Assembly: GCF_000023905.1 (NCBI RefSeq)
Contig: NC_013192.1
Coordinates: 2,170,001 to 2,234,000 of the forward strand
Length of the DNA: 64,000 nt
From: Leptotrichia buccalis C-1013-b
GTDB lineage: Bacteria; Fusobacteriota; Fusobacteriia; Fusobacteriales; Leptotrichiaceae
Direction: 5' to 3'
Part shown: in pieces, positions 25,010 through 54,437 of the stretch
How positions within the stretch are numbered: position 1 is the stretch's first letter
Layout: each line of letters starts with the position of its first letter
Notes under the pieces: generated by a model
Told to the model about the DNA's origin: nothing
Databases searched by the model: none
The model's input: the letters and a program-made list of their open reading frames with translations, nothing else
Translations under genes and position numbers: made by a program

Positions 25010-25476
25010 TATACTAACCCCATTTAAATAACGAATTTATTACAAACTTTTCCAACAAAGGCTAAAAACCTAATATTTCTAAAGAATTAAAATATAATTT
25101 TTTTGTTTTAATAAACCGACGGAGCTTTTATTTGTTCAACTACGACTGTTTGACGACTATAAGGAGGAGTTTCGGAGTTGGGCAAATAAAAGTCGTAGTC
25201 TAGCCATAGGTATTGCGTAGCAATCTTGCCACAATTTTAATTATTAGGATAAACCTTTACTGCAAGATAAGGATTTGCGGCAATGAGCAATCCTGCGAAA
25301 AAAAAGAAAAAAACGAATAAAAATAGTAAAAACTGATATTAAATAAAATAATCTAATACTAAATCCCATTATAAAATAGAAACTATGTTAAGGACAAAAA
25401 GTTGTAATTTCTTACTAAAATAGTATGTAATTCAAAATTTATTAAATATTCGCTATTTAAACGGGAAATAGCATTA
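25010..25476 (+). repeat. Structured TAATACTA-ended element, copy 1
   Basis: The gap between the hydrolase and the first tRNA cluster holds one copy of a dispersed element, also at 41.2, 47.8 and 53.9 kb. Helix a (25125-25134, CTTTTATTTG) pairs with 25183-25192, and helix b (25140-25147, CTACGACT) pairs with 25191-25198, in a-b-a'-b' order. This copy has about 58 bp of extra DNA at 25208-25265, which breaks the left foot of the terminal hairpin (AGGATTTGC 25270-25278 still pairs). No gene is seen in it. Confidence 0.8.
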
Positions 25477-25606
25477 GTATAGCAACAATAATCCTTTCTA
25501 ATTTTGTAGAAGATATTAGTATATCATTTTTACTGTGTTCTAGGTGCTACACTTAATTATATAATACGCCTGTACAGAAAAAATAAAAATTTTAGAAAAA
25601 AAAGTG

Positions 25607-25635
25607 TTGACATTTATTTTAATTTGTGATATTAT
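25607..25635 (+). promoter_or_regulatory. Promoter of tRNA cluster 1
   Basis: Consensus TTGACA (25607-25612), a 17-base spacer and TATTAT (25630-25635) lie about 37 bases before tRNA-Pro. The same layout and downstream sequence precede the second tRNA cluster. Confidence 0.85.
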
Positions 25636-25672
25636 ATTTCTTGTCCGAGAGTAATTAAGAATTATTCTAGAA

Positions 25673-25749
25673 CGGTGTATAGCGCAGCTCGGTAGCGCAC
25701 CTGCCTTGGGAGCAGGGGGTCGTAGGTTCAAATCCTACTACACCGACCA
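25673..25749 (+). tRNA. tRNA-Pro (anticodon TGG)
   Basis: The acceptor stem CGGTGTA/TACACCG, anticodon stem CCTGC/GCAGG with loop CTTGGGA, T-arm GGTTCAAATCC and encoded CCA are all present. It is the first of five tRNAs in this cluster. Confidence 0.95.
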
Positions 25750-25761
25750 TTTAATAGATTT

Positions 25762-25837
25762 GCGGGAGTAGCTCAGTTGGTAGAGCGTCAGCCTTCCAAG
25801 CTGAATGTCGCGAGTTCGACCCTCGTCTCCCGCTCCA
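25762..25837 (+). tRNA. tRNA-Gly (anticodon TCC)
   Basis: Acceptor GCGGGAG/CTCCCGC, anticodon stem TCAGC/GCTGA with loop CTTCCAA, T-loop GTTCGAC and encoded CCA. Confidence 0.95.
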
Positions 25838-25874
25838 TTTTATTTTTAAAGACAAATGATTGCATAAATAGTAT

Positions 25875-25951
25875 GGTGACCGTAGTTCAGTTGGTAGAGC
25901 GCCAGTTTGTGGCACTGGTTGTCGCGGGTTCAAGTCCCGTCGGTCACCCCA
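25875..25951 (+). tRNA. tRNA-His (anticodon GTG)
   Basis: Anticodon loop TTGTGGC; acceptor GTGACCG/CGGTCAC with an extra 5' G at 25875 opposite C73, the histidine identity feature; CCA is encoded. Confidence 0.95.
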
Positions 25952-25958
25952 TAAATAT

Positions 25959-26034
25959 GAGCCATTAGCTCAGTCGGTAGAGCACTTGACTTTTAATCAA
26001 GGTGTCACTGGTTCGATCCCAGTATGGCTCACCA
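25959..26034 (+). tRNA. tRNA-Lys (anticodon TTT)
   Basis: Acceptor GAGCCAT/ATGGCTC, anticodon loop CTTTTAA, T-loop GTTCGAT, encoded CCA. Confidence 0.95.
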
Positions 26035-26051
26035 TTTAAATAAAATAATAA

Positions 26052-26135
26052 GCGAGAGTGGCGAAATTGGTATACGCACTAGACTTAGGATCTAGCGTCT
26101 TCGACATGTGGGTTCGAGTCCCACCTTTCGCACCA
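26052..26135 (+). tRNA. tRNA-Leu (anticodon TAG)
   Basis: An 84-base class II tRNA with a long variable arm, acceptor starting GCGAGAG, anticodon stem CTAGA/TCTAG with loop CTTAGGA, and encoded CCA. A GAGC/GCTC mini-hairpin with a T8 run at about 26163-26184 may end the transcript. Confidence 0.95.
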
Positions 26136-26264
26136 TTTAAGAATAAAATTGTTGGTTATTATGGAGCTATATTGCTCTTTTTTTTATATAAAATCTAGAA
26201 TCATATCAAAAAAATATTAATCTTTAAGTGAATAACTCACATATAAAATAATGCAGAGGAAAAA

Positions 26265-52986: not shown

Positions 52987-53030
52987 ATTTAAAAATTGAA
53001 TATTATAATGTTAAATGGTGATTGTTTTAT

Positions 53031-53106
53031 GGTCGCATAGCTCAGTTGGGAGAGCACCTGCCTTACAAGCAGGGGGTCATTGGTTCGAGCCCAATTGTGA
53101 CCACCA
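53031..53106 (+). tRNA. tRNA-Val (anticodon TAC)
   Basis: Acceptor GGTCGCA/TGTGACC, anticodon stem CCTGC/GCAGG with loop CTTACAA, encoded CCA. Confidence 0.95.
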
Positions 53107-53110
53107 TTAT

Positions 53111-53187
53111 GGAGGTGTAGCTCAGTTGGTTAGAGTGCTTGCCTGTCACGCAAGATGTCGCGAGTTCGAGTCTCGTCACTTCCGCCA
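53111..53187 (+). tRNA. tRNA-Asp (anticodon GTC)
   Basis: Acceptor GGAGGTG/CACTTCC, anticodon stem CTTGC/GCAAG with loop CTGTCAC, encoded CCA. Confidence 0.95.
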
Positions 53188-53193
53188 TTTAAT

Positions 53194-53269
53194 GCCGCTT
53201 TAGCTCATCTGGTAGAGCAACTGACTTGTAATCAGTAGGTGGTTGGTTCGAGTCCGACAAGCGGCACCA
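53194..53269 (+). tRNA. tRNA-Thr (anticodon TGT)
   Basis: Acceptor GCCGCTT/AAGCGGC, anticodon stem CTGAC/ATCAG region with loop CTTGTAA, encoded CCA. Confidence 0.95.
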
Positions 53270-53292
53270 CTATTTAAAATTTAGAATGTTGT

Positions 53293-53377
53293 GGAGAGGT
53301 TCCCGAGTGGCCAAAGGGATCAGACTGTAAATCTGCCGGCTCAGCCTTCGAAGGTTCGAATCCTTCTCTCTCCACCA
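53293..53377 (+). tRNA. tRNA-Tyr (anticodon GTA)
   Basis: An 85-base class II tRNA with acceptor GGAGAGG, anticodon stem CAGA/TCTG with loop CTGTAAA, a long variable arm and encoded CCA. Confidence 0.95.
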
Positions 53378-53444
53378 TTTTTTTTTATAAAAAATAAAAT
53401 TTGTTATAAATAATAAATCATAATTCGTAGGAGGAATTATAACT

Positions 53445-53804
53445 ATGGTTAGAAAAATAAAAGGAGCAGGAAACAAATCTGGTGGAAATCAACAAGATAT
53501 AATCAAACAGGCTCAAGTAATGCAACAAGAAATGCTAAAAATCCAAGAAGGATTAAAAGATAAATTTGTAGAAACATCTGTTGCTGGTGGAGGAATTACT
53601 GTAAAAGCAAACGGACAGAAAAAAATTGTAGATTTATCAATTTCATTAGATGTATTAAAAGATGCAATTGAAGAAAATGATGCAACAATAGTTTCTGACT
53701 TGATTGTAAATGCAGTAAACGAAATTTTGGATAAAGCTGAAGAAATGGCTGAAAAGGAAATGGAAGTAGTTACTGGTGGAGTAAGTATTCCAGGATTATT
53801 TTAA
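53445..53804 (+). CDS. YbaB/EbfC-family nucleoid-associated protein
   Basis: A 119-residue YbaB/EbfC protein: IIKQAQVMQQEMLKIQEGL, VETSVAGGGITVKANGQKKI and VNAVNEILDKAEEMAEKEM are typical. These dimeric proteins bind DNA without strong specificity and are often encoded beside dnaX or recR; here the gene stands behind a tRNA cluster. Start: AGGAGGAATTATAACTATG. It ends at a strong terminator. Confidence 0.92.
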   Translation: MVRKIKGAGNKSGGNQQDIIKQAQVMQQEMLKIQEGLKDKFVETSVAGGGITVKANGQKKIVDLSISLDVLKDAIEENDATIVSDLIVNAVNEILDKAEEMAEKEMEVVTGGVSIPGLF

Positions 53805-53834
53805 AAATTAAAATTTTAAATAAATATTTTTATA

Positions 53835-53860
53835 AAAACCAGAGTAATATCTGGTTTTTT
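53835..53860 (+). terminator. Terminator of the YbaB gene
   Basis: AAAACCAGA (53835-53843) pairs perfectly with TCTGGTTTT (53850-53858), then a T run. Confidence 0.9.
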
Positions 53861-53884
53861 GTTTTTTCATAATTAATTTTATAC

Positions 53885-54437
53885 TAATACTAAACTCCAT
53901 TTGAATAACGAATTTATTACAAACTTTTCCAACAAAAGATAAAAATCTAGTATTTCAAAATAATTAAAATATAATTTTTTTTGTTTTAATAAACCGACGG
54001 AGCTTTTATTTGTTCAGCTACGACTGTTTGACGACTATAAGGAGGAGTTTCGGAGTTGGGCAAATAAAAGTCGTAGTCTAGCCATAGGTGCAGGATTTGC
54101 GGCAATGAGCAATCCTGCAAAAAAAAAGAAAGAAACTAATATTAGGCTGTGTCTGAAAACTCAAAATCTATGTTATTTTTAATATTTTTTTGATTTTATA
54201 AATTATACAAATCACGATAAAATCAGTGTTTATTATTTTTGATTTTGGAAAAATTTGTTAAAAATTCATCATTTGGAGAGTTTTCAGACACGCCCTAAAT
54301 AAAATAATCTAATACTAAAGCCCATTATAAAATAGAAACTATGTTAAGAACAAAAAGTTTTAATTCCTTATTAACTAAAAATAGTATGTAATTCAAAATT
54401 TATTAAATATTTGCTATTTAAAGGGGAAATAGTATTA
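53885..54437 (+). repeat. Structured TAATACTA-ended element, copy 4 (interrupted by a MITE)
   Basis: This copy has the orientation of copy 1, with ends TAATACTAAACTCC and GGGGAAATAGTATTA. Both helix pairs are intact, and the terminal hairpin is 54090-54100 with 54109-54118, loop GGCAATGA. A 151-bp inverted-repeat element sits inside it at 54145-54295, and about 16 bp present in other copies is missing next to it. It ends 40 bases before the MFS gene start. Confidence 0.8.
54145..54295. mobile_element. MITE-like element, 151 bp, nested in copy 4
   Basis: GGCTGTGTCTGAAAACTC at the left and GAGTTTTCAGACACGCCC at the right are inverted copies with two mismatches. TA flanks both sides (54143-54144 and 54296-54297), while the other copies of the host element have a single TA at that place, so the insertion duplicated TA. 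It has no coding capacity. TA duplication fits IS630/mariner-like or some IS5-group transposases, which are not in this window. Confidence 0.8.

Follow-up and report, generated by a model that had tools for sequence, protein, structure and literature searches.

A Modular Noncoding Repeat with IS630-Type Ends and a Predicted RNA Core in Leptotrichia

Four Copies of a Noncoding Element in a Leptotrichia buccalis Chromosome Segment

The DNA analyzed here (64,000 nucleotides of Leptotrichia buccalis C-1013-b, contig NC_013192.1, positions 2,170,001 to 2,234,000 of the forward strand; herein referred to as the window) contains several intergenic copies of a noncoding element with terminal inverted repeats (TIRs) at its ends and a compact core that is predicted to fold as RNA. 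A preliminary description of the window had placed four closely related copies between genes, two in each orientation, with imperfect TIRs and a G+C-richer core of about 130 bases. All four copies are present at those places (397–547 bp, with cores 96–99% alike), repeat finding recovers two per orientation, no open reading frame (ORF) of at least 100 amino acids spans any of them, and both the TIRs and the core were confirmed, the latter being ∼128 bp long except in copy 1, where it is extended by a domain of ∼60 bp. The exact bounds had to be redrawn from the T-N-A trinucleotides that flank the copies, and the count of four holds for the close copies but missed a fifth, divergent core. The family is not a chance likeness because the L. 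buccalis genome itself (G000, one contig of 2,465,610 bases; genomes are numbered G and fetched loci L) holds at least 53 matching pieces, with the best 40 of 153 first-look candidates scored.

Copy 1 (25012–25473, plus strand) has a TTA target-site duplication on both sides (25009–25011 and 25474–25476) and belongs to variant Ai, where Ai and Bi denote variants A and B that carry the optional ∼60 bp domain. Its core, domain included, spans 25115–25297 on the plus strand; the covariance model for A and B cores scores 103.2 bits over 25115–25225, and the 3′ hairpin was read from the sequence. The other three copies are of variant A: copy 2 (41180–41585, minus strand; core 41354–41481, 147.7 bits) is flanked by TAA and TTA, which are both T-N-A but unequal; copy 3 (47828–48224, minus strand; core 47992–48119, 146.1 bits) has a TTA duplication; and copy 4 (53888–54434, plus strand; core 53993–54120, 148.0 bits) is flanked by TAA and TTA, with only the right arm present at this place in G005 and G009. 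Copy 4 owes its length to a second, unrelated miniature inverted-repeat transposable element (MITE) of 151 bp inserted within it (54145–54295, no strand assigned), which lies outside the family, has GGCTGTGTCTGAAAAC / GAGTTTTCAGACACGCCC ends and TA flanks, and resembles at its ends the IS5-like copies of the same genome. One ORF was called from a TTG within the last 24 bases of copy 4, and an ATG lies downstream at 54478. The fifth core, of variant C (21438–21564, plus strand), is matched by the A/B model at 21438–21559 (E = 1.3e-10) and has a TIR-like right end, TAGTA, at 21749–21753, followed by TTA; no left end was found for it.

Mapped in 55 fetched stretches of the L. buccalis genome and in the window, the element is built in the order LEFT (∼100 bp), core, A-rich tail, and RIGHT. 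Cores A and B have LEFT and the 3′ part in common and differ in the arms of their hairpin, and the optional domain occupies the same location in both. Core-less copies, in which LEFT is joined directly to RIGHT, occur in L096 and L104. The right arm of variant A is a TIR-ended unit of its own (54313–54434, plus strand, in copy 4) that also occurs alone elsewhere, and sub-type A carries an internal TIR-like sequence. Conservation of the LEFT arm (e.g., window 53960–53990) is high across 31 A and 36 B copies and extends to AATTAAAATATAATTTT, with a −10-like TATAAT shortly upstream of the core as a candidate promoter element.

Ends, Target Duplication, and an Empty Site

The element ends in TACTA..TAGTA and appears within a 3-bp T-N-A target duplication. 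Among 55 strictly defined TIR pairs in the fetched loci, 47 have T-N-A on both sides, and the central base is the same in 32 of these (shuffle mean 20.8, P = 0.0003); this set supersedes a looser definition of the ends, under which 34 of 114 were equal (shuffle mean 20.6). TIRs lie on both sides of 41, on one side of 43, and on neither side of 27 of the 111 A/B cores with enough flank (28 of 139 were left out), versus 0, 13, and 134, respectively, of 147 control positions. An empty site, which the preliminary description had suggested seeking, was found for copy 3: G005 reads AAATAAAATGAG-TTA-AATACTTT, with a single TTA, where the occupied site reads TTA, then TACTATTCC..GGTTTAGTA, then TTA. 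Copy 3 is absent from four relatives in all, the site also being unoccupied in G009, G001, and G003.

A Probable IS630-Family Partner

A candidate mobilizer was sought by a DDE_3 search of the 13 genomes of the genus, followed by a scan of the transposase loci for the element ends. Three insertion sequence (IS) copies of ∼1.1 kb (two in G001, one in G004) are each flanked by inverted TACTAAACCCCGTTWAA ends, and their outer flanks are TTA/TTA, TAA/TAA, and TTA/TGA. They code in two frames, with frame-interrupting changes in one G001 copy and in the G004 copy, and their orfB product is assigned to DDE_3 (Pfam) and IS630 (NCBIfam) with E = 1e-33. Used as a query, orfB matches 7 of 33 family-level genomes at E ≤ 0.001, with at least 72% identity only in G000, G001, G004, and G010. 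Because the ends of the elements recur around three IS630-family copies from two congeners, the elements are probably MITEs mobilized in trans. The preliminary description had asked whether the copies might be the ends of a known IS: their ends are indeed common to an IS630-family IS, yet the elements themselves have no transposase gene.

The typical target of IS630 elements is the dinucleotide TA. The MITEs use the 3-bp T-N-A, and two of the three IS copies have equal T-N-A flanks; the partner, if IS630, would therefore represent an atypical sub-group, and no report of an IS630 element with a TNA target was found in the literature searched. Other candidate partners were considered and set aside. 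Further IS630 copies in the L. buccalis genome (TATAGTRAAACYTAT ends) were dropped because their ends are similar, not identical, and because the end pattern at ≤3 mismatches has 110 forward matches versus 16 backward-control matches. The IS5-like copies have ends that match the MITE inside copy 4 and not the element family. An origin by Y1/REP-type transposition was also rejected: there is no Y1 match at E ≤ 0.001 in G007, G009, and G010, each of which has at least 32–35 core matches.

The Core as a Predicted Structured RNA

Of 93 cores found in the fetched loci, two were skipped (ends missing) and one was dropped (N or short flank), leaving 85 distinct sequences, of which 33 A, 24 B, and 23 Ai cores were aligned, four Bi cores were only folded singly, and one unclassified core was unused. 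The predicted fold comprises a closing helix (mostly G-W-C), a long hairpin (21–23 bp) whose apex is nearly invariant (YTGTYTGA...GAGTTT), a linker that approximates TAG-W-C-N-AGC, a second (3′) hairpin, and the A-rich tail. In the linker GTCGTAG-W-CTAG, W distinguishes A from B and covaries with its counterpart in the opening CG-W-CGG; pair 5/86 is A-U in 17 sequences, U-A in 16, and G-U in one. In the A+B alignment, 98.6% of cells are paired and the covariation is 0.362, versus at most 0.082 for slid structures. Both sides have changed in 13 of 37 pairs between A and B; most of these double changes are the A-to-B difference itself and may therefore reflect few events.

Variant C folds in the same way with a further set of arms. 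Across A, B, and C (22 sequences), 98.9% of paired cells are standard, double changes affect 21 of 32 pairs, and the covariation reaches 0.682, whereas slid structures stay at or below 0.154 and shuffles at or below 0.240. Since this structure was derived from the very alignment scored, it is favored over its slid versions; pair types, 44 in all, are no more numerous than in shuffles (mean 42.1). The strand that reads from LEFT to RIGHT folds more stably than its complement in 33/33 A, 24/24 B, 22/23 Ai, and 3/4 Bi cores, and in the predicted helices, which were picked by RNA rules, G-U cells outnumber A-C cells in A (188 vs. 5), B (149 vs. 5), and Ai (154 vs. 20). Wobble pairs and folding energy together suggest that the RNA would be made from the LEFT-to-RIGHT strand. 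No Rfam family matches above its gathering score at the core.

Between orthologous copies (flank matches on both sides; 37 pairs in 18 groups), the 18 pairs of the same core type differ at 66 of 2,407 core positions, 246 of 3,755 arm positions, and 618 of 6,634 positions outside the element. In these counts, to which non-independent pairs and some misaligned arms contribute, the core changes more slowly than the arms. In variant A, all four bases occur at column 49 of the apical loop (A 12, G 9, T 8, C 4; n = 33), which lies between nearly invariant neighbors.

Module Differences and Genomic Context

The core type differs between species in 11 of the 18 orthologous groups, or in 10 of 17 when one mixed group with a core cut by an N run is removed. 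The extent of the difference varies: arms and hairpin are nearly identical between the A copy L179 of G005 and the Ai copy L245 of G007, which differ in the domain; the Bi copy L203 of G007 and the B copy L228 of G011 also differ in the domain, and both read GGTTTTGCGG where most B cores read GGATTTGCGG; and between the A copy L180 of G005 and the B copy L202 of G007 most of the element differs inside a common left end. Within-genome homogenization by simple gene conversion is not supported, because A cores are hardly closer within genomes (divergence 0.054, n = 53 pairs) than between them (0.057, n = 475). Among 73 core loci with sufficient flanking sequence in G000, G007, and G011, both neighboring genes are antisense to the core in 28 and sense in 21, 14 loci are convergent and four divergent, one lies within an ORF, and five have a neighbor missing.

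Distribution

The preliminary description had proposed a search of Leptotrichia and other Fusobacteriota. By DNA search of 60 genomes (L. buccalis and 12 congeners included), the core is present in 11, all of the genus (L. buccalis and 10 of the 12 congeners). The A/B covariance model, built from 36 A and B cores and run on 98 Fusobacteriota genomes, finds it in 12, again all Leptotrichia (12 of its 13 genomes), with copy numbers that are lower bounds given stricter filters and at most 35 candidates scored per genome; strong matches occur only in Leptotrichia. A further model, R2, which was built from variants A, B, and C and read at E ≤ 0.01, matches all 13 genomes of the genus; outside it, R2 gives weak matches in 8 of 27 genomes, with a maximum of 19 in G046. 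Within 481,206 bases of G046 and G042, R2 has two matches, both weak (31.0 and 27.6 bits). The former (L350:13335–13495, in G046, which belongs to another family) is a repeated palindrome of ∼150 bp with the same CTGTTTGA..GAGTTT apex and AAGCCATA, and partial copies of it lie in two other stretches, L357 and L360. We treat kinship outside the genus as a lead only.

Viral contigs gave no match to two core patterns or to the G046 loop. The core loop pattern occurs in 25 viral contigs, of which 23 have no model match at E ≤ 0.1 and one of the other two has a weak partial match (15.6 bits, E = 0.018); by a rough estimate, such numbers are expected from chance. No core was found in the plasmids searched, and three exact matches outside Leptotrichia (L214, L219, and L226) score nothing better than E = 0.16 and were taken as chance.

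Interpretation and Rival Explanations

The preliminary description had offered two alternatives: a mobile noncoding element that is moved in trans, and a structured RNA in dispersed copies. Both are supported at once: the element has TIRs, a target duplication, an empty site at one locus, and ends that recur on IS copies, and its core shows compensatory changes in three variants; movement in trans itself is what we infer from these. On balance, we consider it probable that the family is a noncoding MITE with IS630-type ends, many copies of which carry a structured RNA, and we class it with a known (RUP/BOX-like) kind of element, as a structured MITE whose partner is an IS630-family IS. In the mechanism that we propose, the IS630 transposase would recognize the ends and move the element in trans; the structured RNA would sit inside the arms of many copies; internal parts (hairpin A or B and the ∼60 bp domain) would be exchanged, most simply by recombination with other copies; and the core, where transcribed, might act as a stable hairpin by analogy with BOX or NEMIS repeats. 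It is possible, at somewhat less than even odds in our judgment, that the hairpin alters the stability or processing of the RNA that contains it. More tentative still is a wider hypothesis in which the cores belong to a functional family of structured RNAs of Fusobacteriota, carried in Leptotrichia by IS630-type ends, with hairpin and domain swapped as cassettes at fixed sites, the fold under selection, and distant kin in other genera.

A number of observations weigh against the favored interpretation. As for mobilization, L. buccalis itself retains only a 65-residue remnant of orfB of this transposase, and G004 has the IS and no core by DNA search (8–10 cores by RNA model). The central base of the target is unequal in 15 of the 47 T-N-A pairs, and T-N-A is missing on a side in 8 of 55. 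As for the RNA, single changes in Ai helices are of A-C type 14 times and of G-U type nine times (A, 5 vs. 10; B, 3 vs. 5); they break pairs more often than they keep them, and Ai copies therefore look unconstrained. When three orthologous pairs with arms more than 10% divergent are removed, the core and arm counts become, by subtraction, 42 of 1,923 versus 115 of 3,143, and one pair is reversed, with 6 changes in 170 core positions versus 0 in 196 arm positions. The excess of antisense over sense neighbors means that action within neighboring mRNAs is not favored. Finally, no TIR could be recognized at 27 of the 111 A/B cores and at 9 of the 12 C cores, and the core may therefore also spread by itself.

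This last observation is an argument for the view that the core is an independent dispersed RNA repeat of Fusobacteriota, similar to REP/BIME, that spreads by itself and was captured secondarily by IS630-type ends. The head-to-head arrangement of A/B and C cores in several genomes speaks for the same history, as do the weak R2 matches in 8 of 27 genomes outside the genus and the apical motif of the one repeated palindrome sampled there. We nevertheless regard it as rather unlikely: a TIR flanks at least one side of 84 of the 111 A/B cores, ends that are missing may have decayed, the two matches sampled outside the genus are weak, no transposase is tied to the core, and no Y1 match was found in the core-rich G007, G009, and G010. 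We judge similarly doubtful the view that the element is purely parasitic, an IS630 MITE with interior hairpins that are merely a DNA palindrome aiding transposition or replication, with no role as RNA. Bacterial MITEs are generally A+T-rich with inverted repeats and tightly folded, according to excerpts of PMC2229807 and PMC3049150, respectively; the lack of pairing constraint in Ai copies fits such an element, and divergent intergenic regions rarely host cores (4 of the 67 loci with both neighbors placed), as tolerance alone predicts. A DNA palindrome, however, should keep G-T and A-C mismatches alike, and G-U far exceeds A-C in helices that were chosen by RNA rules; moreover, the LEFT-to-RIGHT strand is the more stable in all 57 compact A and B cores.

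Two further explanations carry less weight with us. The preliminary description had also considered that the core might be part of a protein-coding gene elsewhere, and the core of copy 4 does have one frame free of stops, which is likewise open in 19 of 33 compact A cores. A coding interpretation nonetheless fits poorly, as the same frame is stopped in the other 14 A cores (in 11 at the same loop codon), the other two frames of the plus strand, the only strand counted, are stopped in 33/33, and the A, B, and C variants keep base pairs, not codons; a coding remnant is thus highly improbable. It is likewise improbable, if much less so, that repeat assembly errors, without real exchange, account for the core types that differ at orthologous sites. 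Several genomes are drafts (G010 and G011 have ∼80 contigs each), repeats of 400 bp are easily misassembled, and draft assembly could yield some of the module differences; two mixed groups (L071/L235 and L070/L231), however, compare the single contig of G000 with the complete chromosome of G007, and in both a third genome agrees with G007.

Relation to Known Repeats

RUP of Streptococcus pneumoniae, associated with IS630-Spn1, is the nearest known system in its mobilization: it is a noncoding MITE with TIRs like those of IS630-family IS, for which mobilization in trans has been proposed (in excerpts of PMC2229807), and stem-loops are predicted for it if transcribed (in excerpts of PMC3049150). 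The likeness is that of a noncoding MITE with IS630-type TIRs; by description, the two are set apart in that RUP is 107 bp long and targets TA, whereas the Leptotrichia element is ∼400 bp long, targets T-N-A, and has a core whose parts are interchangeable. The nearest system in terms of modularity and folded RNA, compared by layout only, is BOX of S. pneumoniae, a boxA-boxB-boxC repeat with a predicted folded RNA, a middle module that may be absent or multiplied, and some expressed copies (in excerpts of PMC3049150). In contrast with BOX, the Leptotrichia element combines two interchangeable hairpins with an optional domain, and its ends recur on an IS.

NEMIS/Correia of Neisseria is a MITE with RNA hairpins proposed to affect adjacent mRNAs via RNase III (in excerpts of PMC2229807); the likeness to the Leptotrichia element is one of description. 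REP/BIME and CGTC-tagged repeats are dispersed hairpins, often dimers (in excerpts of PMC3733652). REPs are 20–40 bp long. The Leptotrichia core recalls them in that it starts with CGWCGGAGC and has GTAG in most copies; it differs in that REPs lack these TIRs and Y1 transposases do not track Leptotrichia cores. No description of the element was found among the matches listed in the literature searched, which included excerpts of PMC5093955 and few subscription journals.

An abundant, apparently undescribed noncoding element of Leptotrichia hence gains a likely mobilizer and exact ends, and a structured RNA family absent from Rfam is added. The frequent module differences at orthologous copies offer a natural system in which to ask whether MITE cargo is selected at the RNA level or just reshuffled by recombination.

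Other Observations

In several species, A/B-like cores are arranged head to head with C cores or their remnants, ∼20–100 bp apart (L306, L346, L052, L120, L035, L033, L034, L037, and L057). In the window, a sixth, weak core-like match (30.7 bits, E = 1e-5) lies at 21237–21372 on the minus strand. At L117:1135–1450, a TIR-ended element with another G+C-rich interior (GTAAGGGCATCAGACGCCATGCCC) is interrupted by an IS630 copy, and an interior resembling it is present at window 21170–21280. A separate repeat that starts with TACTCGAACCCATTTAAA at window 40994 recurs at six other places and is possibly the end of another MITE family.

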